A stretch of 47,597 nt of DNA from an uncultured Puniceicoccaceae bacterium (GTDB taxonomy: Bacteria > Verrucomicrobiota > Verrucomicrobiia > Opitutales > Coraliomargaritaceae), in contig CAJQOS010000028.1 in NCBI GenBank assembly GCA_905479975.1, positions 1 to 47,597 on the forward strand, written 5' to 3'. The notes beneath the pieces were generated by a model, which was not told the DNA's origin, searched no databases, and was given only the letters and a program-made list of their open reading frames with translations. Shown here piece after piece: positions 20,500 through 42,894 of this stretch (positions are counted from its first letter, which is position 1; the number at the start of each line of letters is the position of its first letter). The position numbers and the translations under genes are program-made.

Positions 20500-21693
20500 T
20501 TAGAAGCGATAGCCGACTGAAAAGGCGACGGCTTGGCTGTCGAGGTCGTAGTCGCCATCAACGGTTGGCTTATCATTGCCACTGACTCCACGATCAGATG
20601 CGTAGATATATTGATAGGCCAACTGCCAGTAGATGTTTCCATAGTCTCGGCCAACACCTACAGCAAAGGCATGGCGGTCTGAGTCAGGGACGATGGGGAG
20701 AAAGCCTTGGTCGGGCACTGCATTCTCGATGTATGTGTAACCTGCGCTGACATTCCAACCTTTGTCAAAGTAGCGAGTCACACCGAGTTCCCAAATGAAC
20801 GCAGATTCCCAGTCGAGATCATACGAAATGTCGCCAATCAAGGGGTTGAGGCCTTCGATCGTTAAATCATCGACGCGATCCCAGTTCGTCCAATCAACGT
20901 TGAACTCGATGTTCCACTTTTCATTCGGGCGGTAAGAGTAGCCGAATACGATGGATTCGGGGAAGGTGAGATCCGCCTCGGTTTTGAATTTACCGGCGAA
21001 TGGGCCGAAGAATTCAGGGTGAAGGGTGGTGTTTCCGTCGTAGGTGACCTCGGTTTTTGCCTGATAGTTCAGGCCGAAGGAATGCTTTTCAGAGGGTCTC
21101 CACATGGCAGCAAGGGAGAAGCCAACTGTGTCGTCATTCGCATCGAACTTGAGGGCATTGGCTTTTAGCTTAACATCCGTCTCGTCGTAACTGGCACCAG
21201 CCGAGAGGGATAAAGTTTCCGTTACTTGCCACGCAAGGACTGCATGGTATTTTGTGTAAGCTAGGTCGGCTTCATAGGGAACCGATGGATCGAGTGTGAA
21301 GTTCGCATCACTGCCCCAGTCGGACCCCAGCGCGAAGGGTGAATAAATTCCAAACCCCATCGCGAACGGCGTATCCTTCAGGTTGTGACTAACGAAGGCG
21401 CTGGGGACGGCTTGGAAGTCGTCGTCCATGTCGTCGTTGCCCAACGTGGTGTCTGCACTGTAGTCGAGTGAGACGGCATAGACGCTGCCGTGGATCTGTG
21501 TGCCCTCGAGCTGTGTGAGGCCTGCGCCGTTATAGAAGACTGCGGAAGCGTTGTCCGCTGTGGCGGTGAATGCATTGCCGCGGGCGGTGGCGAAGGCGTC
21601 GACATAGGCGATACGTGTCGCTGCGGCGTGCGAGGTGAGAGTGCTTGCTAGGCTAAGGCCGGTGAGTAATAGGAGTCGTTGATTCAGATTCAT
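20500..21693 (-). CDS. FadL/OmpP1-type outer-membrane hydrophobic-compound channel
   Basis: The 397-residue protein has a signal peptide (MNLNQRLLLLTGLSLASTLTSHAAA) and then the FadL hatch-region hallmark: ATARGNAFTATADNASAVFYNGAGLTQLEG. The rest is a beta-barrel of alternating aromatic strands, with WNIEFNVDWTNWDRVDDLTI typical of the family, ending in YRF. FadL proteins let long-chain fatty acids or other hydrophobic molecules pass the outer membrane by lateral opening. Its start overlaps the stop of the histidine kinase gene (ATGA), so the two are translationally coupled, an unusual partnership. A strong terminator follows. The substrate is unknown; the divergent acyl-enzyme cluster suggests a fatty-acyl signal or nutrient (inference). 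Confidence 0.88.
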   Translation of the reverse strand: MNLNQRLLLLTGLSLASTLTSHAAATRIAYVDAFATARGNAFTATADNASAVFYNGAGLTQLEGTQIHGSVYAVSLDYSADTTLGNDDMDDDFQAVPSAFVSHNLKDTPFAMGFGIYSPFALGSDWGSDANFTLDPSVPYEADLAYTKYHAVLAWQVTETLSLSAGASYDETDVKLKANALKFDANDDTVGFSLAAMWRPSEKHSFGLNYQAKTEVTYDGNTTLHPEFFGPFAGKFKTEADLTFPESIVFGYSYRPNEKWNIEFNVDWTNWDRVDDLTIEGLNPLIGDISYDLDWESAFIWELGVTRYFDKGWNVSAGYTYIENAVPDQGFLPIVPDSDRHAFAVGVGRDYGNIYWQLAYQYIYASDRGVSGNDKPTVDGDYDLDSQAVAFSVGYRF

Positions 21694-23717
21694 TCAGTAT
21701 GGGTAGGATGTGTTAAAGTGGAGGGGAGCTCGATTTTGATGTCCCAGTCTGCTTGAGGGGTTCGAGTGTTGAGTTGGATAAAGCCTTGATGCTCTTCGAT
21801 GATTTTCTTGGCGACTGATAGACCGAGCCCGACGCCTGTGGTGCGCGTGCTAAAGAAGGGCTCTGTGGCTTCGGCTAAGGTCTCGGCTGTAAAGCCTGGC
21901 CCGTCGTCGCGAATGTATACCGTGAGGATGTCTTCGTCGTTGCGGCGAAGGATCGCATGCACTGCGCTTTCGCCGCTTTCATTGGATTGAATGGAGTTTA
22001 GAAAGAGTTCTTCAAATATGTAAGCGATGCCTTCGGGGTTACCATGTATGCTGGCGTCTTTGAGGGCATTATCGAGGTTCAGCTTTACGGTGCTTTTGCC
22101 GCTCTGTGCTTTGGCTCTGTTGAAGCCGTCGAGGATCGCGGTTTCGAGATCGACCTCGTCGTGATTCGAAGGCTTCGAGTGCTCGGCGAGGTAGAGCATC
22201 TGTTCGCTGAGGCGTTTGATGCGGGCAGTCTCTCGGGTGAGGGCGGTTTTGAGTGACGTCTGAAATTTTGGCTGGTCGATTTTCTTGTCGATCAGTTGCA
22301 TGTGTGTGGTCAGCGGCACGAGTGAGTTGCGGATCTCGTGGGCAAATCGTTTGGCGATCAGGCTGATCAATTGTGACTTCGAGTCTTCGAGGGCATTTTG
22401 TTTGCTGGCCTCAATGTGTGTGTAATCTTCGATCACCACCATGACAGGGCGCGGGAGCAGGGGGAGCTTGTCGTTTGAGGCGAAGGGAATGAGCGAGATC
22501 TTGTGCAGCTCGGCATTGTTTGCGCCGGGGATTAAGAATGGCTTGGGCAGCTCGCCGAGTTCCACGGCGAGGTGTATCGGGCCTGCCAGTTCGTTGGGTA
22601 GGTCTGCCCATTCGATCGGTTCTGCATTTTCGGGCCCCATGCCGAGGAAGCGTTTTGCGGAATTATTGGTGTAAAGCACTTCCAGGTGTTCGCTCAATAC
22701 GAGTGCACCGCTGGAGATCGAACCGAGGACATTCTCGATGAGTTGTCCATGTGCGGCGAGTTCGGTGTGCAGGCGACTGTTTCGGATCGATAGTCCGAGC
22801 TCTTCCATCAGCAAATAGAGTAGCTGTAGCTCATCTTCGCTGTAATTGCGTCCGGTGACTGGGCCGTTGAGCACGGCCACGCCGATGAGGCGTTCGCGAT
22901 CACTAATCGGGATGGCGAGGTGGCAGCCTAGGATTTCAAATTCTTTACGGGCGGTTGGATCGATCTCGCCAAATGAGGAGTGAGTCTGGCTGTGCCGATG
23001 GAGGATGCGCGGTTGCTCTGTTAGTGCGCGGCCGAGGCCGGTGTCGCGGCTAAGTTGATAACAATCGACGAGATCTGCGGGCAGCCCGAAGGATGCGATG
23101 CAAGCGAGAGTGGTTGAGCGATTCTTACTGGCAAAGGATTTTTGGCCGTCGTTCTCGAGGAAGATGCCGATGCGGCTGAAGCTGATGTGTTCACGTAGCT
23201 TGAGGATGAAATGATGCGTGAACGCTTTATAATCCAAGCTGAAGCTGAGGATTTGGGAAAAGTCGCGTAAGACGTGTAGTGCAGAGGCTTGCGCTGGCTT
23301 TTCGACCGTATCTTCTGCGCGTCGAGTGGAATGCGTCGGCTGTGGCGCAGTGGGCTCTGTTGGGGCCACGTATTGTTGAATCATGCGCTCCAGCGTTTGT
23401 TTCGGCACGGGCTCGGAGAAAAAGAGATCCGCTCCTTCGTCGAAGGCGAGTTGCTCTGTCTCTAGGCTATATTCTGGAGCGATGACAATCGTCGGAATTG
23501 TCGCGTTGAATGAGCGAAGGGAGCGCAGGTGTTTTGCCAGTGTTGAGTCGCCGCTGTCCGCGTAGATGATGGCGAGGTTGAAGGCATTGCGCTCTAGCGC
23601 GGAGGTGGCTTCAGAGGGAGAGCGGCGACTTATGTTTCGTATGTGTGGCGCTGTGATGACCCCTCGTAAATTTTCCGAGATGGATTCACTATTCTTGATG
23701 AATAAGATGTGGGTCAC
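21690..23717 (-). CDS. soluble histidine kinase with pseudo-receiver, GAF and PAS-like domains
   Basis: A 675-residue protein without membrane spans. Residues 1-115 fold like a receiver domain but the acidic pair is K-N (ILFIKNSES), and the phospho-acceptor Asp position is Tyr (NLAIIYADSGD), so it cannot be phosphorylated in the usual way. A GAF domain follows (about 145-310), then a PAS-like segment (about 325-435: LGSISSGALVLSEHLEVLYTN), then HisKA with the H-box RFAHEIRNSLVPL (H460) and a HATPase with N-box FEELFLNSIQSN, DDGPGFT and GVGLGLSVAKKI. It is coupled by ATGA to the FadL-like gene and faces away from the LuxD-methyltransferase cluster over a 194-base divergent promoter region. No response regulator is adjacent on its strand. 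Confidence 0.9.
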   Translation of the reverse strand: MTHILFIKNSESISENLRGVITAPHIRNISRRSPSEATSALERNAFNLAIIYADSGDSTLAKHLRSLRSFNATIPTIVIAPEYSLETEQLAFDEGADLFFSEPVPKQTLERMIQQYVAPTEPTAPQPTHSTRRAEDTVEKPAQASALHVLRDFSQILSFSLDYKAFTHHFILKLREHISFSRIGIFLENDGQKSFASKNRSTTLACIASFGLPADLVDCYQLSRDTGLGRALTEQPRILHRHSQTHSSFGEIDPTARKEFEILGCHLAIPISDRERLIGVAVLNGPVTGRNYSEDELQLLYLLMEELGLSIRNSRLHTELAAHGQLIENVLGSISSGALVLSEHLEVLYTNNSAKRFLGMGPENAEPIEWADLPNELAGPIHLAVELGELPKPFLIPGANNAELHKISLIPFASNDKLPLLPRPVMVVIEDYTHIEASKQNALEDSKSQLISLIAKRFAHEIRNSLVPLTTHMQLIDKKIDQPKFQTSLKTALTRETARIKRLSEQMLYLAEHSKPSNHDEVDLETAILDGFNRAKAQSGKSTVKLNLDNALKDASIHGNPEGIAYIFEELFLNSIQSNESGESAVHAILRRNDEDILTVYIRDDGPGFTAETLAEATEPFFSTRTTGVGLGLSVAKKIIEEHQGFIQLNTRTPQADWDIKIELPSTLTHPTHTE

Positions 23718-23911: not shown

Positions 23912-25606
23912 ATGCTTAAAGGACAATTACCCACAGCAGTTTCTGATATAACGAGTCGTCTCGTCTCTTTCCCCGGGCCGAGTGGATTGCAGGTCGTTGG
24001 TTATATTGATGAAGGAGCGGAAGATGTGTGGAATGAGCGCGTCGTGATTCTTGCGCCGCGGTATGGGGAGACGAAGAAGAATAACCTGCAGTTAGCTTAT
24101 GAGCTGGTTGCAAATGGTTTTAAGGTGCTTCGTTTTGATCAGACGAACCACATCGGTGAAAGCGATGGGGCGATGCATGCATTTACGTTGTCGGGAGCGA
24201 CGGAGGATATTTTAGCGGTTGTGGATTATGTGGATCGATTTTATGAGCCTTCTGAGGTCGTTTTAATTACGCTGAGCCTCTCCTCGCGTTGTGGGTTTCG
24301 AGCCTGTGCGCAGGATTCACGGATATCGCGCTTTGTTAGTTTGGTCGGAATGCTTGATATGGATCGGACTTTGCGGGCGATTTATAATAGAGACTTTTTC
24401 GGAGAGTTGAAGGCAGGTGCGACGTGGAGTCGGGTCGATATTTTGGGTTTTGAAATTGAGGGTGACAAATTTTATCAAAGTTTGGTTGATAGTGATATGT
24501 TGAATCTATCCGGGACATTGATTGATTCCGCTCAAGTGAGTGCTCCGGTGCTGCATTTGTGTGCGGAGCGGGATTTGTGGGTCGAGCGGGAAGATGTCGA
24601 TCAGGTGATGTCGTGTTGTTGTAATGGTCGAGTGGTGTCGATTCCGAGTGTGGGGCATGAGCTGAACGAGAATCCTGAGTCGCTCAAATTCGCAATTCAG
24701 GAAGTCATGGCATTTTGCGCTGAAGGTTTAGCTGGAAACTCGGATGCTCTGTGCGTGCCGGACATGAAGGTGCTACTCCGGCAGAATCGACTCGAGCGCT
24801 CTAAGCTTCAGGCATCAATGGATTTCTCGGAGTCGGAGTCGGAGTTCTGGGGGGAGTATTTGGGGAAGTTCGGGATCATCGAAGATGCAAAATATTATGT
24901 TGAATATTTCGATAAAATGTCAGCGCTTCTGGGGGCAATACAACCAAGCGATGTGTTGTTAGATGCGGGCTGCGGCAATGGATTTTACGGCATTAGTATT
25001 ATTCGCGCCTTGATTCGGGACTCTTCGGTTCGGGGGAGTTTGCCTCAGCCGATACATTATTGTGCGATGGATCTGACTAGTCACGGGCTAACTCGTTCCT
25101 ATTCGAGGCATACGGAATCGCTGGTGGAGTTTCAGCGCCAGCAGCTTTGTGACTCGGGAGCCGTTGGGTTTTCGTATCGAAAAGTTGATTTTGATGCTGT
25201 TGGAGGTGAGCTTGGTGCTGCGCTTCCGTTTACAGATGGATCGATTAGTAAGATCTGCTGTAGCTTGGTGCTGTCTTACTTGAAGGAGCCGTTGAATCTG
25301 ATGCAGGAGTTTTATCGAGTGCTTAAGCCCGGTGGAGTGGCTGTGGTTTCCAGTATGAAGCCCGGTTGCGACATGACGGTGCTCTATCATGATTATGTGA
25401 CTCAAGATGTAGGGGGCGAAGGGGAGCAGGATGCGTCTATTTTGTTGAGTGCTGCTGGTCGAATCAAACTGAAGAAAGATACGGGGGTGTATCAATTTTT
25501 TGACGTGGAAGAATTAGAGCACCTTGCCGCTCAAGTTGGTTTTATGGAAACTCGTAGCTGTCGTTCGTTTGGTCATCAGGCCAATGTTATCCGTATTGTG
25601 AAGTGA
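23912..25606 (+). CDS. LuxD-like acyl hydrolase/transferase fused to a SAM methyltransferase
   Basis: The 564-residue protein has two catalytic halves. Residues about 20-290 are an alpha/beta hydrolase close to LuxD, the acyl-ACP thioesterase/transferase of bacterial luminescence: KVLRFDQTNHIGESDGAMHAFTL and ILAVVDYV align with LuxD segments, the nucleophile is in TLSLS (S122; LuxD has A-x-S-x-S instead of G-x-S-x-G), D221 is in ERDLWVEREDV and H249 in VGHELNEN. The S-D-H spacing (99, 28) nearly equals that of LuxD (97, 30). Residues about 330-560 are a class I methyltransferase: LLDAGCGNGFYG (D351), AMDLT, SYLKEPLNLMQEFYRVLKPGG and VVSSMKPGCDM. A sensible reaction would be release of an acyl group followed by carboxyl methylation (inference). 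The next gene starts GTG on its stop (GTGA). Confidence 0.85.
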   Translation: MLKGQLPTAVSDITSRLVSFPGPSGLQVVGYIDEGAEDVWNERVVILAPRYGETKKNNLQLAYELVANGFKVLRFDQTNHIGESDGAMHAFTLSGATEDILAVVDYVDRFYEPSEVVLITLSLSSRCGFRACAQDSRISRFVSLVGMLDMDRTLRAIYNRDFFGELKAGATWSRVDILGFEIEGDKFYQSLVDSDMLNLSGTLIDSAQVSAPVLHLCAERDLWVEREDVDQVMSCCCNGRVVSIPSVGHELNENPESLKFAIQEVMAFCAEGLAGNSDALCVPDMKVLLRQNRLERSKLQASMDFSESESEFWGEYLGKFGIIEDAKYYVEYFDKMSALLGAIQPSDVLLDAGCGNGFYGISIIRALIRDSSVRGSLPQPIHYCAMDLTSHGLTRSYSRHTESLVEFQRQQLCDSGAVGFSYRKVDFDAVGGELGAALPFTDGSISKICCSLVLSYLKEPLNLMQEFYRVLKPGGVAVVSSMKPGCDMTVLYHDYVTQDVGGEGEQDASILLSAAGRIKLKKDTGVYQFFDVEELEHLAAQVGFMETRSCRSFGHQANVIRIVK

Positions 25607-27747
25607 ATACATATCTTACGATCTCTTCTTTGCTGAATTTTTCAGCGGCTATTTTGCTCATCGCCTTTCTGGTGGGTGCGCGGGATCGCAGTCCGATTCG
25701 GCGTCGCTATTTATATTTCTTAATTTCTGTTTCGGCCTGGGCTGGAGCATATTTTCTCTGGCAGGTGACGGCGGATGAGATTGTTGCTGAGTTCTTTTGC
25801 CGTGCGTTGACCTGTTTTTCGATATTCATTTCGATCACATTGTATCACTTCTCTTTGAGACTGGCCGGGGTGGAGTCTCGACGTGGTGTGTTGTTGGGTT
25901 ATCTCGGTGCTTGCGGTTTGATTTGTTTGATGCCGACCGGACTGATCGTGGATGGAGTGTCCGCTCGGCCTTCGCACATGTATTGGCCAGATGCAGGTCC
26001 TTTGACTTGGTTGTATTTGCTGTATTTCTTTGGCTATTTGATTGCGAGTGGATGGGTCCTTCTCCGTGGATGGAAGCTGAACATTGGCAGCAAGGCCTCG
26101 GATCAAATCTTTGTTTTATCAACGTGTATTGTGGGTTTCTTGGGCGGGGCGACGAATTTCCCCTTGTGGTATGATATTCCGATTCAACCGTATGGGAATG
26201 TATTGGTGGCGGTGTATGTGTTCCTGTTAGGGCATGGTCTTTACAGTAGTCGAGTGTCAGGTGTGAGTCTTGATTTTTATAAGGCATCGGTTGGGTTGCT
26301 TTTGAGTGGATCAGCGGCGTTGTTTTATTTGTTGATTACCGCGCTGTATCGAACTGCTACGGGTGATCCCATGTCGTCTGATGAGTTTTGGTTTCGCGGG
26401 GTGCTGGCATTTGTTCTGAGTATTGTTATTTTTTGGGGCGTCCCACGTTTGAAGTTTTGGACGGAGAACATACTTGAGGGCGTCTTTCGTCGCGAGCGGG
26501 CGAGTGCATTGACTGAGCTTAAGGATCTGCCGACGAGGCTTTCCGACCTTGCGGAGGATGGGTCTATTTTTGAGGTGACGGCTGAGACTGTGATGCAATC
26601 GCTGAATGTGACGGGGGTAGCGGTGTATGTGATGGAGCCGTTTGACAGTGCGTATCGTTGTTCGGTTTTAGCTGGTGAATTTATAAAGGAGCCCGAGGGC
26701 TATACTTTGGATGTTGATAGCCCGATTGTTGAGGCGTTGAGTCAGCAGCCGGTCTGTCTCGTGTTGGATCAGATATACGGGGATATTGATCAGTCTTATT
26801 ATCGGGCGCTCGTGGATCTGAGAAATGAACTGAAAGTCTCGATGATCGTGCCGATCTTTGCGAACCATGAAGTGTTTGGGTTGATCTTGGTTGGCCCGCC
26901 GAAACAGCCGCGAGCGTGGAGTGAAGAGGAGGTATCCATCTTGTTTAATGTGGGCGCTCAGATTGGTATCAATTTCAGGACACGTGATTTCGAGCGTCGT
27001 GCGAGTGAGGTGGATAAACTGGTGGCCTTAGGCACGATGGCCGCGGGTTTAGCGCATGAAATTCGTAATCCGTTGGTGTCGGTCCAGACGTTTGCCTCGA
27101 TGGTAGAGTCTGGGAAGTCTCTAGATCGAGTGTCAGATCAATTCAAGGGAGTGCTTCTTCGGGATGTGAAACGTATTGCCAGTATTGTTGAAGGGGTGGC
27201 GCACTACTCGCAGAATCAGAAGGGCAAGAAGGCTCAGATTTCTATCAATGAGGTGCTGCTAAACAGTGTCGATATCAGCTCGAAGCTGGCGCAAACGCAT
27301 GGGGTGGCACTGCGCTTTACGTCTGCCGAGGATGTGGATGCGACGGTTTCTGCAAATCTGGGGCAACTCGTGCAGGTGTTTAGTAATTTAATTGAAAATG
27401 CGATTCAGGCCTTGAATGGAACAGAGTCCCCGCAAGTGAAGGTTTCTGTGGCGAAGCGTCAGGCTCATCGTGGTCGTGGGCAGTCTTGGGTGGAGGTGTC
27501 TGTTGCGGATAATGGGCCCGGGATTCCCAAAGCGATTTTGAGCCGGATTTTTGATCCGTTCATTACTTCGAAAGATACGGGCGCTCGTGACGAACGCATG
27601 GGGATGGGCTTGGGGCTCGCCATCTCAAAACGTATTATTGAGAATCACAACGGTGCGATCACTGTGATCAACGATCCTGAGGGCGGCGCAAAGTTCTTGG
27701 TCTCACTCAAATGCACTCACCCTAAAGATGAAAAAACAACAAACTGA
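25603..27747 (+). CDS. membrane histidine kinase with multi-span N-terminal sensor and GAF domain
   Basis: A 714-residue sensor kinase whose GTG start overlaps the previous stop (GTGA), so it is coupled to the LuxD-methyltransferase gene. Residues 1-290 hold about eight or nine hydrophobic spans similar to the 7TM-histidine-kinase sensor type; no large periplasmic loop is present, which suits a membrane-soluble ligand. A GAF domain covers about 300-460 and the kinase core follows with GLAHEIRNPLVSVQTFASM (H485), N-box FSNLIENAIQAL, DNGPGIPKAI, FDPFITSKDTG and GMGLGLAISKRIIENHNG. This layout resembles PrsK-like and autoinducer kinases such as PhcS or CqsS by topology. The next gene starts 20 bases before its stop. 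Confidence 0.92.
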   Translation: MNTYLTISSLLNFSAAILLIAFLVGARDRSPIRRRYLYFLISVSAWAGAYFLWQVTADEIVAEFFCRALTCFSIFISITLYHFSLRLAGVESRRGVLLGYLGACGLICLMPTGLIVDGVSARPSHMYWPDAGPLTWLYLLYFFGYLIASGWVLLRGWKLNIGSKASDQIFVLSTCIVGFLGGATNFPLWYDIPIQPYGNVLVAVYVFLLGHGLYSSRVSGVSLDFYKASVGLLLSGSAALFYLLITALYRTATGDPMSSDEFWFRGVLAFVLSIVIFWGVPRLKFWTENILEGVFRRERASALTELKDLPTRLSDLAEDGSIFEVTAETVMQSLNVTGVAVYVMEPFDSAYRCSVLAGEFIKEPEGYTLDVDSPIVEALSQQPVCLVLDQIYGDIDQSYYRALVDLRNELKVSMIVPIFANHEVFGLILVGPPKQPRAWSEEEVSILFNVGAQIGINFRTRDFERRASEVDKLVALGTMAAGLAHEIRNPLVSVQTFASMVESGKSLDRVSDQFKGVLLRDVKRIASIVEGVAHYSQNQKGKKAQISINEVLLNSVDISSKLAQTHGVALRFTSAEDVDATVSANLGQLVQVFSNLIENAIQALNGTESPQVKVSVAKRQAHRGRGQSWVEVSVADNGPGIPKAILSRIFDPFITSKDTGARDERMGMGLGLAISKRIIENHNGAITVINDPEGGAKFLVSLKCTHPKDEKTTN

Positions 27748-29176
27748 GCAGGTGGTCTCGTCTGATGCGCCACCCACCTTCGTCGCTCCGGCGGGGTTGG
27801 CTGCGGCTTACTTGCGCTCTGTTGCGTCAAGTTTAGAGTCGTTTGATGAGTTCGGCGGGTTCCTCGATGAGTTGAAGCGTTTGGTCGGTAAAGATTTGTA
27901 TTTGAAGGGTTCGGCTCAGTTGTGTGATGTGTTTTCGGGGGCGAGTGAGCAGCCTGACTTTGAGAGTCTGGGGCAAGGCGAGACAGTCATTGCGGTTTCT
28001 GGCTCGGCGGGGAGCAGTGGTTATTTGAAGTATTCTGGTCGGGCGGATGGCCACCCGTTTGGCGCCGAAGATCTGCATTTGATGGGGGCGATTTCCAGTG
28101 TGGTTTCAGCGCTGGTCGCTCAGGCGCAAAATTTTCGCAAAAAGGAGCAGGCATCTTCTATTTTACAGTATTTGATCAATCAGCTGCCGCTCGGGGTGGT
28201 CTGTTTTGATGCCACTGGCAGTCTACTCATTGAAAATAAAGTGGCTCGACGACTGCTGGGAGAGGGAGGCGCTGCTCTGATTGAAGCGCAACTGACTCAG
28301 GCTGGTAAAGTTCGTGGCGAGCGCGTGAAGTTGCACTTCGAGGTCAATGGTAAGCTGATTTATTCTGAGGGACGTTCGTTGGAAGTGGCAGAGGGGGGCG
28401 TCATCGATGCTTACGTGCTGTATGATTTGAGTGCGTCTCGTGAGAAGTTGTTGAAGGATTTGGAGTTGGAGGCGTATATGAGCGAATCACGTGGAGGGGC
28501 TGTGGTACTCGCTCTGCTGGAGTCGCGCGCGATTGCAGGAGATATTTATCAGAAGCTGAAGGCGTCCGCGGTGGATTTTGATTTGGAGCCCTCGAAGATT
28601 CAACCGTTGGATGCATATGCCTGCGTCTGTGTTTTTCGGGGCAAGGATTTGCGGAGTGTGCGTTATCTGTTGAGGCATCGACTGCCGCTTAAAGCGCTTG
28701 AGGGAGTGCGTGTTTCTGTAGTCGCCTATGATGCGGATGCCCCGGTGGTGGCACCTGCCGAGGCCATGATTGATGCGGCCTCTGCTGCATTACGTCGGTC
28801 AGATGTCGCCTTGTTGCCGGAGCTTCTGGTGATGGATATTTACCCGCCGGTGGTCGATGCGTTGGAGCTGCTGGTCGGGGATGCGTGTCGCTTGCGCTCT
28901 GCGGATTCTTTGGACGAGGCGGAGGCACTGATACGTTCCGGGCAGGTGGATGGTCTGATGATTGATGTGGATGGCTATGGCGAGGATGTGCGGACACGTC
29001 TGCAGCAGGCATCGGCCGCTGCGGGGGGCGGTTTTAAAATCTGCTACTCGAGCTATAAGCAGCCGCAGATGGCTCGTTCTGCCTATGGTTTGTCTGGGGG
29101 GGATACCTTATTGCAAAAGCCTTTTGATGCCGGCGAGGTTGCCGATGCTGTGCGTTTGCAGTTCAATTTGGCTTGA
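27728..29176 (+). CDS. signal-transduction protein: GAF/PAS-like, degenerate GGDEF-like and receiver-like domains
   Basis: The 482-residue protein has no enzyme I can name with certainty. Residues about 20-140 look like a GAF domain (APAGLAAAYLRSVASSLESF, DLHLMGAISSVVSALVAQA), about 145-245 like PAS (LINQLPLGVVCFDATGSLL). Residues about 255-360 resemble a collapsed GGDEF domain: SRGGAVVLALLESRAIAGD, YACVCVFRGKDL, and the end VRVSVVAYDADAPVV with AEAMIDAASAALRRS, but the GGDEF loop itself is absent. Residues about 368-480 resemble a receiver: VDGLMIDVDG (D413 at the acceptor place) and LLQKPFDAGEV with the K-P turn. It lies between two histidine kinases, so it may be a scaffold or relay. It overlaps the upstream kinase by 20 bases. 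Confidence 0.75.
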   Translation: MKKQQTEQVVSSDAPPTFVAPAGLAAAYLRSVASSLESFDEFGGFLDELKRLVGKDLYLKGSAQLCDVFSGASEQPDFESLGQGETVIAVSGSAGSSGYLKYSGRADGHPFGAEDLHLMGAISSVVSALVAQAQNFRKKEQASSILQYLINQLPLGVVCFDATGSLLIENKVARRLLGEGGAALIEAQLTQAGKVRGERVKLHFEVNGKLIYSEGRSLEVAEGGVIDAYVLYDLSASREKLLKDLELEAYMSESRGGAVVLALLESRAIAGDIYQKLKASAVDFDLEPSKIQPLDAYACVCVFRGKDLRSVRYLLRHRLPLKALEGVRVSVVAYDADAPVVAPAEAMIDAASAALRRSDVALLPELLVMDIYPPVVDALELLVGDACRLRSADSLDEAEALIRSGQVDGLMIDVDGYGEDVRTRLQQASAAAGGGFKICYSSYKQPQMARSAYGLSGGDTLLQKPFDAGEVADAVRLQFNLA

Positions 29177-29232: not shown

Positions 29233-30360
29233 ATGACTACTGCTCCTTCCGGACTCCCTACGAAACGATTGCTCGTCGTCGATGATGAAGAAGGCCCTCG
29301 TGAATCGTTGAATATGATTTTTTGCGACGACTTCGACGTGACGATTGCGACATCGGGTGAAGAGGCGGTTCGGTTTTCAAAAGAGGCACCGTTCGATGTG
29401 GTGATTACGGATATTCGTATGCGCGGGATGAGTGGCATTGATGTGCTGCGTGAGGTAAAGAAAATCGATGTGCACACTGAGGTGATCGTATTGACGGCCT
29501 ACGAGACGCTGGATACTGCCCGTCAGGCGATCAGCTATGGTGCTTCCGAGTATTTAAAAAAGCCCTTTGACCTCGATCATATTCAGAAAGTGGTGGATCG
29601 TTGTTATCACAATTATCTGTTTACGACGCAGCAGGAGGCTGTGATCCGTCAAGATGTGAATGCCGCGAAAAATAATTTCTTGGAAATCGTGAGTCACGAG
29701 CTGAACACACCGATGAATGGGATTTTGGGATTTATCGAATTACTGCAAGATACGCGTTTGGATGAGGAACAGGGCGAGTTTGTGACCACCATCCGCGATT
29801 GTAGCCTCAAATATTTCGAGCATGTGCAGGATATTTTGACCTATGCCAAGCTCTCGATGAGTGAGAGTGAGATGTCGAGTTTGTCGTTCAACCCAGCGAC
29901 AATGATGCTTAAATTGATCAATGAAGAGACAGCTGCAACTCAAGTTGAAATCCAGTCGGATATTCCGGAAGATTTGCCCCAGTATGTCAGTGGCTCGGAG
30001 CACGAGATCCGCGTGGTATTACGAAAGCTCCTGCAAAATGCCCTGAAGTTTGCGTCGAAAGGAGAAGTCCGAGTTGCGGTTCAATTTGAACATCTTTCCG
30101 ATTCTGAGATTCGCTTGAGCTTTGAGGTGTCTGACACCGGGCCAGGCATTGATCCGCAGTATATTGAAAACGGCAAGCTCTTTGATGCATTTTCTCAGGG
30201 AGACTCTTCGCTGGCCCGCCCTCATGAAGGATTGGGCCTCGGTTTGGCCTTGTGTAAGAGTATCTCTGATCGGCTCGGTGGTTCGCTGGTGGTTGAGAGT
30301 GAGCAGGGCAAAGGTAGTCAGTTCACTTTCACCGTGGATGTGCGCGAGGAAGAGGCCTAG
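29233..30360 (+). CDS. receiver-histidine kinase (REC-HisKA-HATPase)
   Basis: A cytosolic 375-residue protein with an N-terminal receiver that is intact ([14 protein letters not shown], acceptor D60 in [32 protein letters not shown]) and a C-terminal kinase (H-box [20 protein letters not shown]155; [42 protein letters not shown]). A receiver whose output is a histidine kinase is the unusual layout known from PhcR of Ralstonia. It lies 56 bases after the previous gene in the same direction and is probably the last gene of the cluster. No DNA-binding domain is encoded here, so the transcriptional output must lie elsewhere. Confidence 0.93.
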
Positions 30361-30492: not shown

Positions 30493-30888
30493 ATGCAAAT
30501 CACGCTCCTCAAGTCTAAGCTGCTCCGCGCAGAAGTCACTGACAGCGCCCTCCACTATGAGGGTAGTCTGGCGATCGATTCCGCATTGATGGAGCAGGTC
30601 GGCCTCGTCGCCTACGAGAAAATTCTTGTTGCCAACATCGCCAACGGCGAGCGCTTCGAGACCTACGCAATCGAGGCGCCAAAGGGATCGCGCACCATCT
30701 CGCTTAACGGTGCCGCAGCGCACAAAGGCGAACTCGGCGATTTACTCGTGATCATGTCCTTTGCTCAATTCGAAGCTGAAGAGGCCAAAGCATGGAAGCC
30801 TAAGGTGCTCGTTCTGGCCGATGGCAACAAACGCGTCGTGCGTGCGGATAATGTCCTTGTCGCTGAAAACGCCTTTTACGACTGCTAG
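30493..30888 (+). CDS. panD: aspartate 1-decarboxylase (pyruvoyl enzyme)
   Basis: PanD makes beta-alanine from L-aspartate for pantothenate and coenzyme A. The 131-residue proenzyme cleaves itself between Gly and Ser, here in [10 protein letters not shown] (G24-S25), leaving a pyruvoyl group on Ser25. Other landmarks are [40 protein letters not shown], and [10 protein letters not shown]. Length is usual. It stands alone, convergent with cobQ. Confidence 0.96.
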
Positions 30889-30956: not shown

Positions 30957-32416
<1,460 letters not shown>

Positions 32417-32420
<4 letters not shown>

Positions 32421-33100
32421 ACGCGTGAAATCTCGCAAAACCCAAAGGTGAATCGATGCCCAGGATCGTCGAATTCACGTAGGATTGGGGTTGCTCTGTT
32501 TAAGGCAATCGCTGCGCTGAACTCGGGCGCATCGTAAACGAAGGTGTGAAATTCACCATTCTCACCGCAGGGATCAATGCCTGCTGGGAGGTCATCGAGG
32601 AAGGCTTGGTCGTAGTCGCGCCCTGTAAACTCAATGCCGAGCCGTTTGGTGTCGACGCAAACAACGATCGCTTTGTAGCCAGAGTGAATGAAGCGTTGAG
32701 CTAGCTCGGTGGTGTCGGTTTGCCAGATTGGATAAATGCATTTGAGGCCGAGTGGTTCATGGAAACGCTCACGCCATTGTTTGATGTCTTTGAGGTAGAG
32801 GTCGCCGTAAGCGATTTTTCGGATGCCGCGTTCGGCTTGCTCACGCAGCGCTGCAGAGACGGCGACTTCGTAGGATTGCGCTTCATTGACTTCGACCTCG
32901 ATCAGTGGGAGTCCCAACGCATGTGCCTGTGCACGCAGCAAGTCTTGTGAGACACCGTGCACGCTGACGCTTTGATCATGGCGCACGACGGTGATCAAAG
33001 AGTCGATGCTGTAGCCTTGTTTGAGCGCAGCGGTCAATGCCATGGCACTGTCTTTGCCGCTGGACCAAGAGAAGAGGATGCGTTCGTTGGTGGATGGCAT
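32417..33100 (-). CDS. DUF71/COG2102 ATP-pyrophosphatase, B12-linked subgroup
   Basis: The 227-residue protein has a PP-loop ATP site ILFSWSSGKDSAMALTAAL, VRHDQSVSVHGVS, AYGDLYLKDIKQWRE, IYPIWQTDT, and the DUF71 ending DPCGENGEFHTFVYDAPEF. Archaeal and eukaryotic members make diphthamide, but bacterial members cluster with B12 genes and have been proposed to act in B12 salvage; its position between cobQ and the adenosyltransferase fits that. The reaction is unknown, perhaps an ATP-dependent amide formation. It overlaps cobQ by 4 bases (ATGA). Confidence 0.88.
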
Positions 33101-33110
33101 TGTGAGAGAT

Positions 33111-33183
33111 GTGGAAGCGACACTCTTGTCGCTTTAGCGTTGGCAAAGGCTCTGTGGCAAAGCGACAAGAGTGTCGCTTCTAC
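33111..33183. repeat. inverted pair of REP hairpins (BIME-like)
   Basis: The left arm (33111-33135) and the right arm (33159-33183) are inverted copies with one mismatch, 23 bases apart. Each arm is itself a hairpin: stem AAGCGAC, loop ACTCTT, stem GTCGCTT, headed by GTGG or GTAG. A GTAG/GTGG header on a hairpin is typical of RAYT-associated REP elements. Confidence 0.75.
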
Positions 33184-33184
33184 G

Positions 33185-33757
33185 TTACTTACGATTTGGA
33201 CGAAAGAGTCGCCAGCGGTCTTCGGTGAGTCCCTGTTTGTGGGTTTCTTCGCGTGAGAGCTTGAACATCAAGTCGGAGAGACGGTTGACAAATTGTAGGA
33301 TGCTGGGGTCGACGGGATCGGCTTTGTGCAAGGTGACGAGGCGGCGCTCGGCGCGGCGCGAGATGGTGCGGGCCATGTGGCAGAGGGCGCAGACTTCATT
33401 GCCTCCGGGTAACAGGAAATATTCTGTAACGCTGGCGAGTTTTGATTCGATCTCTTTCATCCAAGCTTCCATCCATACGGAGGATTCTGAGGGTAAAGGA
33501 GATTGCGGGCGTGGCTCGATCTCCGACGGTGTGGCAACGTGCGCCATGAGATTCATCATCTCAGTTTGAATGCGTTTGAGCCCGTCTTCCCATTCGTGGT
33601 CTGCCGGGAGTTTGCTGCGGAGTAGGCCGAGGGCACTGTTGGCTTCGTCGAGATCGCCGAGGCATTCGATGCGTGCATCGTCTTTGTCGACGCGTGCGCC
33701 GCCGCCGACGCCTGTTTGTCCTTTGTCGCCTGCGCGTGTGGATATGTTACCTGCCAT
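33185..33757 (-). CDS. pduO: cob(I)alamin adenosyltransferase, PduO type
   Basis: The enzyme transfers adenosyl from ATP to cob(I)alamin or cobinamide, making the coenzyme form. The 190 residues carry the P-loop-like N-terminus STRAGDKGQTGVGGGARVDKDD, FLLPGG (114-119), the catalytic cluster RRAERR (about 134-139), and FVNRLSDLMF (about 156-165). All residues expected for activity are present. A tandem repeat precedes its start, and a REP pair follows its stop. Confidence 0.93.
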   Translation of the reverse strand: MAGNISTRAGDKGQTGVGGGARVDKDDARIECLGDLDEANSALGLLRSKLPADHEWEDGLKRIQTEMMNLMAHVATPSEIEPRPQSPLPSESSVWMEAWMKEIESKLASVTEYFLLPGGNEVCALCHMARTISRRAERRLVTLHKADPVDPSILQFVNRLSDLMFKLSREETHKQGLTEDRWRLFRPNRK

Positions 33758-33763
33758 GATTTT

Positions 33764-33819
33764 AGTGATAGAGTGAGAGTGAGAGTGATAGAGTGAGAGT
33801 GAAAGTGAGAGTGAGAAGT
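33764..33819. repeat. GTGAGA-type microsatellite upstream of pduO
   Basis: AGTGATAGAGTGAGAGTG-like units, 6 and 12 bases long (GTGAGA, GTGATA, GTGAAA), fill the space just upstream of the pduO start. Confidence 0.7.
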
Positions 33820-33845
33820 GTAGCGATGCGACGCTAGTCGCGTCG
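33820..33845. repeat. REP hairpin with GTAG header
   Basis: GTAG at 33820-33823 is followed by a hairpin CGATGCGAC, GCTA, GTCGCGTCG, with one mismatch. It belongs to the same class of RAYT-type hairpins as the other elements but has a different stem sequence. Confidence 0.65.
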
Positions 33846-33874
33846 GTCGAGTGTTGGTTGCTGCATCAACCTTA

Positions 33875-33912
33875 TTCGATGTTGAACGTTCAATGTTGAG
33901 CGTTGAAAGTTC
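33875..33912. repeat. dispersed short repeat, also found in pabB
   Basis: The element has an internal near-palindrome (TTGAACGTTCAA core). Its first 17 bases equal, inverted, those at 14447-14463, inside pabB. Confidence 0.6.
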
Positions 33913-33913
33913 A

Positions 33914-35074
33914 CTAGTCTTCGAACCGTCCTTGCCATTTGATGGCAAACCCGGTGGCGAAGGCTTGATGAATGAGTTGTAGAAAGTCGTCGTTGGAGTG
34001 AGCGAGGTCGCCTGTTTTCCAATCGGTGAGGAAAGTTTCGGGGGCAAGCGCCTTACCGCATACCGCGCGGGCGATGAGACCGGCTTGATACAGTAGGCTG
34101 TCTTTCGCGCAACTCACAGGCAAGACGCCCCAAGTGATCTGATCCTTCACGTGGACGCAGGCTTGCACGGCGCCGACGGTGACGGGGTCGTGGTTGATCG
34201 CTAGAAAGTTATCGGTAAACAAGGTCTGCAACGATTCAGGTAGGCGCGCGGAGATGTCTTCGATGAAGCGTTCTTGTGTGTCGCCGAAGCGTTCGAGTTG
34301 AATGATGCTGGAGCGGCGCGAGTCGGGCGTCATACCACACTGTAGGTTGAGCGCTTGGCTGAGTGCGCCTTCCATCGCTTGGCCAATCAGCTCGCCGAGC
34401 TTGGAGTGTTTATTGGCATCGTGATGGACGACTTCGGTGCCGAGCTGCGCGGCGATCCCGATTTGATCGGTGCCGGTTCCAGTCGCGAGCCTGCCGGAAT
34501 AACGCGACGGGGTGGTCAATTCGTGCAAGACTGCTGACTTCGCTTCGGTCGCGACGGTGGCTGCGATGAGGAGCGCCCCAGGGCTGAGCTCTTGATTGAT
34601 AAAGAGCATACTGATGATGGTGCCTGCGGGCGGTGTGGGTGTGCCAAGCGATTTGACGCCGTCGGCGGTTTGCTCGTAGCTGGCGGGGTCGCCTGCGCGC
34701 CCGGCATTGCCACCGACACCTGCAGTGCAGATGGCGACGACTTCGAGGCCGTTGAACGCGGCGCGTTGGATCGCGGCGTTGTTCATATTGGCGGCGGTGC
34801 TGAGGATGGCGGCGTTGGTCGTTTCGATGCCAGCTTTGGAAGTGATCCGCTTCATGTAGCGAGGCGGATCTTTGACATAGACTTCCACGAGATCGGTATC
34901 GGTGTGCTTACGCGGTTCGCAGGACTGATGGTTGATCAAGTAGTCCAGACCTTCGTGCACGCCACCGTTCAGCCGGCTTGTCGAGAGCACGCGATGCGGC
35001 TTTAGGAAGTGCGCGTAAACGACCTTCTCTTTGCGGTAGAGATCGACTGCGTTGTAGAGTGTATCTAATTTCAT
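33914..35074 (-). CDS. cbiZ: adenosylcobinamide amidohydrolase CbiZ
   Basis: CbiZ removes the aminopropanol side chain from adenosylcobinamide (and in some versions from pseudo-B12), giving cobyric acid that can be rebuilt with another lower ligand. The 386-residue protein contains CbiZ's core: AAFNGLEVVAICTAGVGG (about 105-122), NAGRAGDP, GTIISMLFINQELSPGALL (151-169), TEAKSAVLHEL and LATGTGTDQIGIAAQLG (196-212). The last 160 residues, from NKHSKLGELIGQ onward, extend the usual core and may be a second domain. It sits between the unknown membrane protein and pduO. A CobT call was considered but the motif set does not fit. Confidence 0.88.
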   Translation of the reverse strand: MKLDTLYNAVDLYRKEKVVYAHFLKPHRVLSTSRLNGGVHEGLDYLINHQSCEPRKHTDTDLVEVYVKDPPRYMKRITSKAGIETTNAAILSTAANMNNAAIQRAAFNGLEVVAICTAGVGGNAGRAGDPASYEQTADGVKSLGTPTPPAGTIISMLFINQELSPGALLIAATVATEAKSAVLHELTTPSRYSGRLATGTGTDQIGIAAQLGTEVVHHDANKHSKLGELIGQAMEGALSQALNLQCGMTPDSRRSSIIQLERFGDTQERFIEDISARLPESLQTLFTDNFLAINHDPVTVGAVQACVHVKDQITWGVLPVSCAKDSLLYQAGLIARAVCGKALAPETFLTDWKTGDLAHSNDDFLQLIHQAFATGFAIKWQGRFED

Positions 35075-35075
35075 G

Positions 35076-35108
35076 AGAATTAGGAATTACGAATTAGGAA
35101 TTACGAAT
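35076..35108. repeat. 14-bp tandem repeat before cbiZ
   Basis: GAATTAGGAATTAC occurs twice, followed by GAAT. It lies between the stop of the membrane protein gene and the cbiZ start and supplies the last codons of the former. Confidence 0.7.
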
Positions 35109-35765
35109 ATGCTTCGTAGGGGCTTTGCTTGCGAAGTCCGCGGAGGCCTGTTCTGCTCCGGTCTGTTCAAGTGCGTTCTCTCGTTTCACGGGTGCCGCAA
35201 GCTGCACTCCTTCGGCTGATTGCTGGAAACGACTCCATGCTAAATAGAGAAAGAAGACGGCAGACCCGATTGCGGCGCTTAAATATGCGGTGATGTTTGC
35301 GGTCTGTGTAAATGCGATGCCCGTTGTTGCATCTGGATACCAGAGCTCAGGATAGAAGGCGTGAGTTAGTCCTTTTTTAATTCGAATGCGATCAATGTAT
35401 CCAGATAGCAGTGACACGCTTTCAATGCAAAATAGGAGAAAGAAGAAGCGTTTGTATGCGAATGCGAAATTCAAGGGTGGACGAGGGTGCCCGAGTTGAG
35501 TCACTGCAAAGGTAATCATGCCAAACATCATACCTAGCCCAAAAGTCGCGACTGCGGCATACTCGATGACGAGTAGTGCCGGGTTCTCAAATGGATAGAG
35601 TCCAGTGTGGAATTCGGTGAAGTGTCGAGGTTCGACCGAGATCAGAATGAGGTCATGGAGTATGGCCCAAATAATTATCGTCAACGAGTAGGCCCACGCA
35701 TGCCGAATGAAAGCGGCGTGCTGCGCTTTCGGTATCGGTAATCGGAACTTGTCGGCAAATGTCAT
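35094..35765 (-). CDS. unknown polytopic membrane protein of the cobalamin locus
   Basis: No family is recognised. The frame is open from 35804, but the ATG at 35765 overlaps the btuD stop (ATGA) and gives about 223 residues starting [19 protein letters not shown]. Four to five membrane spans are visible (around [54 protein letters not shown], and the C-terminal [21 protein letters not shown]), with a [11 protein letters not shown] loop between. The last residues ([17 protein letters not shown]) are translated from a REP hairpin and the tandem repeat, so the original C-terminus may have been replaced. Location and overlap with btuD suggest a part in corrinoid transport; the sequence does not show what it does. 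Confidence 0.7.
35116..35139. repeat. REP hairpin with GTAG header, inside a coding 3' end
   Basis: GTAG followed by a hairpin GGGCTT, TGCTTGCG, AAGTCC. A close copy (GGGCTT, TGCTTGCG, AAGCCC) lies at 45956. Confidence 0.75.
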
Positions 35766-36856
35766 TTCTTCGGAGCCGAGCATTTTCCCTGTTGTTCTAC
35801 CCATTCGATTACGCCTTCGATGTGAGTGAAGTCGGTGGTCTCGTTGTTTTGTGTAATGACCCAGTGTGTGCGGTTATCTTGTTGAGATACCTGGGTATCA
35901 AAGGCTGCCTGTGATGAATCTTCGGTGATGCCGATTCCGAGGCGAGCGAAGGCGCGGCTGGTCCATAGTGCGGCGGGGCCTTCGCCTGACAGTGTTACCA
36001 ATATACACGGTGACTTGTGTGTGCGGAAGGAGCCGGCCTCTGGGTCCCAATCCAAATTTTCGTTGGCAAAGGCACGTTCGAGCTCGCCGCTGAGTGCGAG
36101 TGCTTCGGGTGCGCCTTGGATGAGTTCGCCATCGGGAGTGATTAGCCACAGGCGGTCTGCGTAGCGCAATGCGAGGTCCAGATCGTGCGTGGAGAGTAGC
36201 ATTCCGATCTGTTCGCGGTGTGAGAGATCGCGCAAGATACGCATTAGTTCGACGCGGCGAGGTAGGTCAAGAAAGGCGGTGGGCTCATCGAGTAGCATGA
36301 GTTGCGACTCTTGTGCGAGGGCGCGGGCGATGGATACTTTTTGACGTTCGCCATCGCTGAGTTCGGCGACTTGGCGCTCGCTGAGTGCTTCGGCACCGAC
36401 GGCTTTCAATGCCCATGCGATACGGGCGTGGTCGTGTTCGCCGAGGCCGCCGAGCCAGCCGGAGTAAGGGTGTCGGCCGAGGGCGGCGAAGGCATAGACA
36501 TCCATCATGCCGATCGGCATGCTGTCGGTGAAAACGATACTGACCATGCGTGCGCGTTCGCGCGGGGTGATGGCGTGAAAGGCTTTGCCCTGTAGCTCGA
36601 GTGTGCCGCTGAGGGCGGGTTGCGCCCCTGCGAGCGTGCGGATGAGCGTGGATTTTCCAGTGCCGTTCGGCCCGAGCAGGCAGATGAATTCACCGCCTTG
36701 AATCGCGAGGTTCAATGCCTTCAGTGTGGCCTGCGATTGGCCTTTCACTTGATAGCCGATGACGAGGTCTTCGACATTTAGCTTGGGGACTGCCTGTGCT
36801 GGCGCCTGTCCACTGCCCTCTGCCTTCTGTCTTCTGTCTTCTGAATAAGTGTTCAT
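35762..36856 (-). CDS. btuD: ABC transporter ATPase for cobalamin (BtuD type)
   Basis: The cytosolic ATPase of a FecCD-type importer. Starting at [14 protein letters not shown], the first 20 residues are translated from a heptamer repeat; the ATPase proper starts at about residue 26 ([15 protein letters not shown]). Walker A is [18 protein letters not shown], signature [15 protein letters not shown], Walker [13 protein letters not shown] and the switch His [17 protein letters not shown]. The last 95 residues form an extension beyond normal BtuD, with [27 protein letters not shown], and resemble a small Rossmann-like domain. It overlaps btuC by 4 bases (ATGA) at its start and the membrane protein gene at its end. 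Similar proteins import iron chelates, but the locus argues for corrinoids. Confidence 0.9.
36806..36843. repeat. heptamer tandem repeat in the btuD 5' coding region
   Basis: Five 7-bp units (minus strand AAGACAG, AAGACAG, AAGGCAG, AGGGCAG, TGGACAG) start just after the first few codons of btuD. A unit gain or loss would shift the reading frame. Confidence 0.75.
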
Positions 36857-37914
36857 CCGAATAGGCGCTTCATATTGCGCTGCTTGATGAGGGCGACAAT
36901 GATCACAGGCGCACCGATGAGTGCGGTGATGGCATTGAGCGGTAATGAGACGTCGAGTCCCGGGCCGCGTGCGATGAGATCCGCTGAGAGTGATATCAGC
37001 GCGCCAACTAAAATGGTCGCGGGAATTAGGATGCGGTGACTGCTGCTATTAAACAGGCTGCGGCTTAGGTGTGGCGCGGCAATGCCGAGAAAGCCGATCG
37101 GTCCGCAGAAGCCTGTGACGGTGCCTGCGAGTAGGGAAGCTGAAAGTAAAATGAAGAAGCGCACTTGCTTGGTGCGAGTGCCGACGCTTTCGGCGTAATG
37201 CTCACCCAGTAGTAGCGCATCGAGTGGCTTCATGAACAGCAGTGTAATGACGAGTCCAATACAAATCGCGGGCGCGAAGACGATCATTTGATTCCAGCTG
37301 ACGTTGCCATAGTTGCCGAAGGACCAGTTCATGAATGACTGTAGGCGTTCGGCCATGCTGAAAAACATCAGGATGCTGACGATCGCGCCAATCGCGTAGC
37401 TCATCATGAGTCCGAGAATCAGTAGTGTCATGACATCGACGCGCCGCGACATGGTGAGCGTAATCATTAAGGTGACTGCGGCACCGCAGGTCGATGCGAA
37501 GACGATTAAAGTTTGCCCGGAGAGGCTGAGGCTTTCGGTGAGACTAATGCCGATGGGGGCGAGCAGTAGTATGACAATGGCGACGCCCAAGCTCGCGCCT
37601 GAGTTGACGCCCAGCACGAAGGGATCGGCCAATGGATTGCGAAAGATGGTTTGCATCATCAGGCCGGCGGTGGAGAGGGCGGCGCCTGCTAGGATTGCGG
37701 TGGCGATACGCGGTAGACGAAACTCGATGATGATCTGGCGCAGCACGTCGTTGATCTCGGGAGAGCCGGAGATGGCTTGCAGGATGACTTTTGGAGCCAG
37801 CGGTTGTGAGCCGAGGCAGGCGCTGAGTAAGGCGACGCCGATCACGCCCAGCACGAGTAGCACGAAGAGGGTGACTCTTCGTGTCGTGAGGTGCGTCTGT
37901 GGTTGCGTGGACAT
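36853..37914 (-). CDS. btuC: ABC transporter permease for cobalamin (BtuC type, FecCD family)
   Basis: The 353-residue permease has about ten spans and the FecCD pattern: [73 protein letters not shown], and [20 protein letters not shown] near the end of the substrate path, followed by GADLI-like [11 protein letters not shown]. It works with BtuD and BtuF to move corrinoid across the inner membrane. It lies 3 bases after btuF and overlaps btuD by ATGA. Confidence 0.93.
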
Positions 37915-37917
37915 GTG

Positions 37918-39057
37918 TTAATTGAGTTGCTCGTAGTAGATGAACTCGTGGTCTTTGGCTAGATCGGGGTGAAAGATTTTGATCATGTCGGCCAGCACTT
38001 CATCGGGGTGGACGATGCCGCGCTCCCAGATGTTGTTGCCGCCGGTAAGGTTGAACTGTTTGGAGTTGTTGTAAATTTCTCCGTCTTTGGCTGCCTGAAA
38101 GTGCATGAATCGCTGGTCGGCAGAGACGAGTGCTTTGAGGTCGCGGTAGCTACTGGGGTTGATCCAAATGTCGGCCTTTGCGGCTTTGAGGAACACGCGC
38201 TCAAAGTCGAGTGGGATGCCGCCGCTGGTGGTGTCGTCACGCCAGATGTAGTCGCCACCGGCATCGGCAATGGCTTGGGCCACATAGCTGCGGCCGCCGG
38301 GCACGTGCCATGCGCTGGCATAGGGTGCGCCGCTAAAGACGGTGGGGCGCGGTTGGATATCTTTTGTGTCGGCGACGAGCTGATTGTAGCGCTCGGCGAT
38401 TTGATCGAAAATGAGGTCGGCCTGTGCGTCTTGTTGGTAAAATGCGGCAATGAATTTAATCCACTCTGAGCGGGCGAGTGGGTGTTGCTCCATGTAACTC
38501 GCAGAGAGCACGACCGGTAGGCCGGAACGTGCGAGCTGCGGATGCACATCGAACAGTGGATTGCCCGAGGAGCTGGTGAGAATGAGATCGGGCTGTAGCA
38601 AGAGCATGCGCTCGATGTCTAAACTCTGCCCAGTTTGCACCGTGATGATTTGTCCGGCATCGATGCGCTCGTGCACTTCGGGGTTGTTAATGAAATCCGG
38701 GGTGGCGACACCGACGAGGGAATCTTGTAGTCCGAGCGTGTCAATGTAGCCAACGAAAGTGGTGGCCATGACGACCACGCGCTCGACGGGTGTGCGAATG
38801 AGCATCGCACCTTTGGGGAGTTCCGGCACCGCTTGCCCCTTGGGGACGAGTGCATATTGAAAGCGCTCCTTGGAATTTCGGCTGATGTTTTTCACCGTGA
38901 TCAACCGGTGGGTCGGAAAGTTCTCGATTTGCAGGTTTTGCGCGTAGTCGAATTCGCCCGAAGCGGACGCTACAGCGCGCGTGCTTTGAATCGAGCAGCA
39001 GATGAGCAGGGCGATGAGGGTGCGGATGAGGGGAAATGTGATTTTCGGTGAAATCAT
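37918..39057 (-). CDS. btuF: periplasmic cobalamin-binding protein (BtuF type)
   Basis: The frame is open from 39105, but MISPKITFPLIRTLIALLICC at 39057 starts a good signal peptide and excludes a hairpin, so I use it (379 residues). The helical-backbone fold of periplasmic binding proteins (PF01497) is visible: RVVVMATTFVGYIDTLGLQDSLVGV, SLDIERMLLLQPDLILTSSSG, ARSGLPVVLSASYME, and DIWINPSSYRDL. It would hold the corrinoid released by BtuB and pass it to BtuCD. The partner genes are directly downstream. Heme or iron-siderophore binding is possible in this family, but the flanking genes decide. Confidence 0.88.
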   Translation of the reverse strand: MISPKITFPLIRTLIALLICCSIQSTRAVASASGEFDYAQNLQIENFPTHRLITVKNISRNSKERFQYALVPKGQAVPELPKGAMLIRTPVERVVVMATTFVGYIDTLGLQDSLVGVATPDFINNPEVHERIDAGQIITVQTGQSLDIERMLLLQPDLILTSSSGNPLFDVHPQLARSGLPVVLSASYMEQHPLARSEWIKFIAAFYQQDAQADLIFDQIAERYNQLVADTKDIQPRPTVFSGAPYASAWHVPGGRSYVAQAIADAGGDYIWRDDTTSGGIPLDFERVFLKAAKADIWINPSSYRDLKALVSADQRFMHFQAAKDGEIYNNSKQFNLTGGNNIWERGIVHPDEVLADMIKIFHPDLAKDHEFIYYEQLN

Positions 39058-39073
39058 GTTGATGTGATATAAA

Positions 39074-39102
39074 GGCGCTTGTCCGGAATGTGGACAAGCG
39101 CC
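39074..39102 (-). other. hairpin between btuB and btuF
   Basis: GGCGCTTGTCC, loop, GGACAAGCGCC is a perfect 11-bp stem with a 7-base loop, followed on the minus strand by only three T. It may weaken transcription between btuB and the downstream genes or protect the mRNA. Confidence 0.55.
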
Positions 39103-39146
39103 CATCTTTGATTTTGGCAGATCAAATACGATCTTTCGCGTTTCGT

Positions 39147-40994: not shown

Positions 40995-40995
40995 T

Positions 40996-41053
40996 GTGTT
41001 GTTTGCTTGATGCCAACCGTGAATAGGATGCTTCAGAGGTTTTCAAACAACAC
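40996..41053 (-). promoter_or_regulatory. start-codon hairpin of btuB
   Basis: On the minus-strand mRNA GUGUUGUUUG (41053-41044) pairs perfectly with CAAACAACAC (41005-40996), whose last base is one base before the AUG. This 10-bp helix would hide the btuB start region, fitting translation control by the riboswitch upstream. Confidence 0.6.
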
Positions 41054-41146
41054 GAAGTGGCTGGGACGCTTCGGGTATGAGGCGTCCGCAGTGTTCCGTT
41101 TTGAGGGAATCATTGCTGATGTGCTTCCTGCTTTCGCGGCAGGCGT

Positions 41147-41168
41147 GCTTCAAAAGTTGTTTTGAAGC
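41147..41168 (-). other. strong hairpin in the btuB leader, downstream of the riboswitch
   Basis: GCTTCAAAA, loop CAAC, TTTTGAAGC, 9-bp perfect stem, without a following T run. Two further hairpins lie nearer btuB (41127-41143 and 41064-41087). Confidence 0.55.
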
Positions 41169-41175
41169 GGACAGC

Positions 41176-41345: not shown

Positions 41346-41496
41346 ATTGTAGTTATGTGTAAGAACAGGCAGCGCGAGAGTTGCGCTACATCTGCACTAA
41401 CAACTTTAGCTGCCCCCAAATGCAAGCACTTTGATGTATTCTTTTTATTTTACGTGCTGCTATTAGCGCGCGTGCTGATTGGGGGTAGGGCTGCTG

Positions 41497-42845: not shown

Positions 42846-42894
42846 CGAAAAGAGCTTGTCGTATTTTTTTAATATGCAATGTCTGTCGGCACAT

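Follow-up and report, generated by a model that had tools for sequence, protein, structure and literature searches.

The locus analysed here raises the question of what a relative of LuxD may do in a verrucomicrobial genome when it is joined to a methyltransferase in a single chain. LuxD is the myristoyl-ACP-specific thioesterase/acyltransferase of lux operons; it prefers C14 acyl groups and forms a covalent acyl-enzyme, from which transfer to acceptors is possible. Hardly any description exists so far of its relatives beyond luminescence, and little is known of cell-cell signalling in Verrucomicrobiota. The window (the whole stretch of DNA analysed, 47,597 nucleotides) belongs to a 2.8-Mb draft genome of the order Opitutales (Verrucomicrobiota), close to Puniceicoccaceae-type genomes. 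The fusion gene, its parts and the genes that accompany it are listed in Table 1.

Table 1. Coordinates of the fusion gene, its parts and the surrounding signalling genes in the window
Feature	Position	Strand	Basis or remark
FadL/TodX-family outer-membrane transporter	20500..21693	-	4-nt overlap with divergent kinase gene
Divergent soluble GAF histidine kinase	21690..23717	-	N-terminal stretch like a degenerate receiver (by eye)
LuxD-methyltransferase fusion, 564 aa	23912..25606	+	ATG start; frame open throughout; end-to-end alignment with 30 homologues
N half, residues 13-275: alpha/beta hydrolase of the LuxD branch (Acyl_transf_2)	23948..24736	+	Profile and fold matches
Codon of nucleophile S122	24275..24277	+	Invariant; aligned with LuxD Ser
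Codon of acid D221	24572..24574	+	Invariant; aligned with LuxD triad
Codon of H249	24656..24658	+	Invariant; aligned with LuxD triad
Helical joint between the halves, residues 285-340 (QNKxERxxL ... E..FW..YL.K)	24764..24931	+	High conservation; alignment and model
C half, residues 340-564: class I SAM-dependent methyltransferase	24929..25603	+	Profile, model and fold matches
SAM-binding motif I, DAGCGNG, residues 351-357	24962..24982	+	Alignment
Histidine kinase: N-terminal membrane part (weak HisKA_7TM), GAF, HisKA, HATPase	25603..27747	+	4-nt overlap with fusion gene
GAF-PAS-receiver-like protein, 482 aa, degenerate C-terminal receiver	27728..29176	+	Domain and homologue scans
Receiver, HisKA and HATPase, 375 aa, without DNA-binding domain	29233..30360	+	Phospho-Asp and phospho-His sites conserved

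A relative of LuxD fused to a methyltransferase

The sequence-only reading had assigned to this frame a triad of the LuxD type formed by S122 (within TLSLS), D221 and H249, separated by 99 and 28 residues, and had given spacings of 97 and 30 for Vibrio LuxD. All three residues were identified at these places and align column for column with the triad of LuxD, and the spacings of 97 and 30 are exactly those of the LuxD encoded on a lux plasmid (L088; S116, D213 and H243). The triad is kept without exception in all 31 aligned sequences, comprising the window protein and 30 Opitutales homologues with identities down to 36%, and is therefore far above chance. The nucleophile elbow in these sequences is [A/S/T]-x-S-[L/I/M]-[S/A], the glycines of the G-x-S-x-G elbow being absent in all 31. 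Identical residues are present in LuxD at 17 of the 30 invariant columns of the N half, including D76, H80, G82, S84, G86, S122, D221, W223, H249 and E253. Shared with LuxD (PDB 1tht; PF02273; NF052253) are the alpha/beta-hydrolase fold, the Ser-Asp-His triad, an elbow of the A-x-S-x-S type and the DxWV and HxxxEN motifs, with an overall identity of only about 20-22%; the fusion differs in the attached methyltransferase and in having signalling genes in place of lux genes.

The kinship was also found in separate profile searches of the two halves, which led to LuxD for the first and to class I SAM methyltransferases for the second. Residues 46-263 match the Pfam family Acyl_transf_2 (PF02273) with 75.1 bits against a cut-off of 20.3 (E 7.4e-21), this being the sole match of the family in the genome. 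The best NCBIfam match of the N half is the LuxD model NF052253 (72.9 bits, E 2.7e-20), which was matched by 22 of 22 homologues scanned and gave the best E-value of any family. In sequence searches of the PDB the first hit was 1tht (V. harveyi LuxD), both with the single sequence (3.5e-16, the next at 0.0019) and with a profile (1.6e-31, the next at 1e-13). The superposition of a predicted fold on LuxD, which had been proposed as a check, gave the same answer: for the AlphaFold model (pLDDT 84.8, pTM 0.82) Foldseek placed 1tht first (E 1e-16; TM-score 0.83 by target; next 1.5e-14), and so did VIA-align (279 residues aligned with Z 30.1 and rmsd 2.9; feruloyl esterases next, Z 28.5), with the triad in register. 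LuxD and the esterases are narrowly separated by fold alone and clearly separated by sequence; an ordinary esterase or S33 peptidase was ruled out, LuxD being ahead by profile with 113 bits versus 55 or fewer. A small tree grouped LuxD with the fusions and set five generic hydrolases apart (support of the split 99/97), but the LuxD branch is very long and its exact placement only approximate.

The N half is a true relative of LuxD and a member of the broad family PF02273. It is neither LuxD itself nor an equivalog, because its 72.9 bits do not reach the equivalog cut-off of NF052253 (420 bits). Luminescence is not involved, since no match to the LuxC family was found in the genome, which rules out a fatty-acid reductase complex; lux genes are likewise absent among the neighbours of the fusion.

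The C half is a class I SAM-dependent methyltransferase with a Rossmann-like fold (model pLDDT 84.5) and a glycine-rich motif I, in which D351, G353, C354, G355 and G357 are invariant among the homologues. Its nearest structures, OxaG, CysG, CmoA, CouO and others, are nearly tied (Z 18-20.5) and comprise O-, N- and C-methyltransferases as well as CmoA with no leader among them, so that the methyl acceptor cannot be read from the fold. By sequence LahSB comes first, with a weak, local match. The claim that a LuxD-type enzyme is fused to a methyltransferase is therefore upheld by profiles, fold and triad, with "LuxD-type" taken to mean related to LuxD. A described fusion of this kind had not been known to the earlier reading, and none was found in a literature search that had most subscription journals outside its reach.

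A conserved signalling cassette in Opitutales

The GTDB collection contains 31 loci with relatives of the fusion, each from Verrucomicrobiota and, where titled more finely, of Opitutales type. The chain is unbroken in 30 of them, with 36-64% identity to the window protein, so that an assembly or frame artefact is ruled out. Only in one draft contig (L051:9941-11642) is the fusion broken into two frames, either by sequencing error or because the gene has decayed. A further candidate for a long fusion (L062) was rejected, being a hydrolase that stands alone in a frame called too long. No full-length fusion was found outside the order among 384 genomes of the class and 289 of the phylum, nor in the GTDB scan, which relied on a pair of short peptide patterns and may overlook distant relatives. 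In the genomes and collection searched the fusion is thus confined to Opitutales, and its presence is patchy within the family. One of the carriers of the cassette is strain IMCC26134 (L031), whose genome is complete.

The conserved cassette around the fusion is the more informative part of the locus and goes beyond the enzyme that the sequence-only reading had considered. The core is formed by the fusion and the 7TM-GAF kinase, which lies directly downstream in 31 of 31 loci, mostly with an overlap of 4 nt; the HisKA_7TM match in its sensor region is under the Pfam cut-off. The next gene, wherever the contig extends far enough, encodes the GAF-PAS-receiver protein (450-480 residues). The divergent GAF kinase and the receiver-kinase were identified in nearly all loci with room for them, and the FadL gene behind the divergent kinase in most, exceptions being L032, L038, L043 and L049, where it is absent despite room. 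All 23 receiver-kinase sequences examined retain the phospho-Asp, Thr and Lys together with the kinase His. No DNA-binding domain is present in the conserved cassette proteins, and across the loci the cassette contains no other conserved metabolic gene. The intergenic region between the divergent genes showed no match to a sigma-70-type promoter.

Some variation was observed among the members. The receiver-kinase gene occupies two positions (L021-L051): in Puniceicoccaceae-like loci it follows the GAF-PAS-receiver gene, and in Opitutaceae-like loci it lies past FadL on the opposite strand. The Opitutaceae-like receiver-kinases mostly have a different kinase half (HELNTP versus HDINNP). The GAF-PAS-receiver protein of the window has no Pfam match alone, its domains being visible through homologues only; its receiver retains the KPF motif and is otherwise degenerate.

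The cassette is not described in the literature searched, and the fusion is probably its synthase. No paper dealing with both PhcB and LuxD, with a LuxD carrying a methyltransferase domain or with a LuxD-like family was found in that literature (most subscription journals lying outside), and papers naming Opitutaceae together with quorum sensing were, by title and abstract, not about signalling in that family.

Likeness to the Phc system and proposed function

The final output of the Phc system is PhcA, a LysR regulator; no LysR gene is present in the conserved Opitutales cassette. In the phcBSRQ operon of Ralstonia the methyltransferase PhcB makes methyl 3-hydroxymyristate or methyl 3-hydroxypalmitate, PhcS is a kinase, PhcR, with 368-374 aa and no DNA-binding domain, is a receiver-kinase, and PhcQ is a receiver protein (PMC8578825, PMC10653808, PMC11960443). 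The window cassette has the same gene plan: a SAM methyltransferase gene followed by a sensor histidine kinase gene, a receiver-histidine kinase of about 370 residues (375 in the window), a receiver-like protein and no DNA-binding output in any of these proteins, as in the operons of Ralstonia and Cupriavidus. The differences are the GAF domain of the sensor kinase and the second kinase and FadL porin facing the operon. PhcB, moreover, has 464-468 aa and is described as a methyltransferase only, whereas the window protein has 564 aa and a LuxD-type half. A PhcB mutation at residue 22 lies outside the methyltransferase domain (PMC6989110), and the reported distribution of the phc cluster is restricted, within Betaproteobacteria (PMC10653808). 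With moderate confidence the cassette may be considered to work like Phc; the likeness is one of gene plan, and membership of the Phc family is not claimed. The Lqs system of Legionella and relatives also has a signal synthase gene adjoining kinase and receiver genes, although its synthase LqsA is a PLP-dependent autoinducer synthase unrelated to the fusion (PMC10653808).

A fatty-acid porin, an acyl-handling enzyme and kinases without DNA-binding output together point to a fatty-acyl signal, and since the fusion always stands beside sensor-kinase genes it is probably the maker of a fatty-acid methyl ester that cells sense. Under the preferred explanation, which is given an even chance, the fusion would be a two-step synthase of such a signal and the flanking genes its reception system. 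S122, activated by H249 and D221, would take a medium- or long-chain acyl group from acyl-ACP, which would then be released as free fatty acid or handed on, and the C half would methylate the carboxylate with SAM. The methyl ester would leave the cell and re-enter through the FadL-type porin, where the putative receptor would be the 7TM-GAF kinase whose gene overlaps that of the synthase; phosphate may then flow to the receiver-kinase and on to an unlinked regulator, in a response presumed to follow cell density. The loci that lack FadL count against this explanation, as do the sub-threshold Pfam match of the kinase sensor region, the smaller size of PhcB and the C half, for which no particular kinship to carboxyl methyltransferases was found among its structural neighbours.

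The nearly tied neighbours of the C half, among which O-, N- and C-methyltransferases are many, would also suit an acyl signal other than a simple methyl ester, in which a small acceptor receives the acyl group of S122 from the LuxD half, and the methyltransferase alters either this acceptor or the acyl chain by O-, N- or C-methylation. LuxD is established to make a covalent acyl-enzyme and to transfer to acceptors, and the same signalling cassette would fit. However, the cassette holds no acceptor-making gene and the Phc precedent is a plain methyl ester; this alternative is considered rather unlikely. The relation between the two activities could also be one of opposition, the LuxD half acting as an esterase to break down a signal, either a fatty-acyl ester or a lactone, that the methyltransferase makes, with one protein setting the signal level. 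Weak profile matches to UilS, a quorum-quenching lactonase, and to esterases, together with a fold common to feruloyl esterases, agree with this, but LuxD is the best match by a wide margin in sequence and elbow motif, and maker and destroyer in one chain would be wasteful; the idea is regarded as very improbable.

The fusion might instead serve ordinary lipid metabolism by releasing and methylating fatty acids, the kinases controlling the enzyme according to lipid state or to fatty acids imported by FadL, with no cell-cell signal. FadL serves nutrient fatty-acid uptake in many bacteria, as is well established, and the GAF and PAS domains of the kinases could sense internal ligands. Four signalling proteins for one enzyme, the lack of any further conserved metabolic gene and a presence that is patchy even within the family nevertheless argue against a housekeeping role, which is judged improbable.

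Returning to the methyl-ester synthase, the fusion might, more tentatively, represent a new verrucomicrobial class of fatty-acyl quorum-sensing synthase, in which an acyl-ACP thioesterase of the LuxD type would act in series with an O-methyltransferase, with import by FadL and a multi-kinase relay. This would be a Phc-like language outside Betaproteobacteria that employs an enzyme of the luminescence type. If the methyl-ester reading is right, the fusion would show a direct conversion of acyl-ACP to a methyl-ester signal, which would also bear on the source of the fatty acid used by PhcB.

Other genes in the window

The gene panD (aspartate decarboxylase, 30493-30888) immediately follows the receiver-kinase gene in the window and in three other loci (L021, L022 and L048), and not in the Opitutaceae-like loci. 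It is followed by an apparent cobalamin uptake and salvage cluster (30957-44868), comprising a CobQ/CbiP-like protein (by eye), a CbiZ amidohydrolase, a periplasmic binding protein and TonB receptors. An RND efflux set formed by an outer-membrane efflux protein, a HlyD-type fusion protein and an AcrB-family pump was identified at 393-6422, and the gene at 46538-47380 encodes a small voltage-gated-type ion channel (Ion_trans, 4.9e-39).
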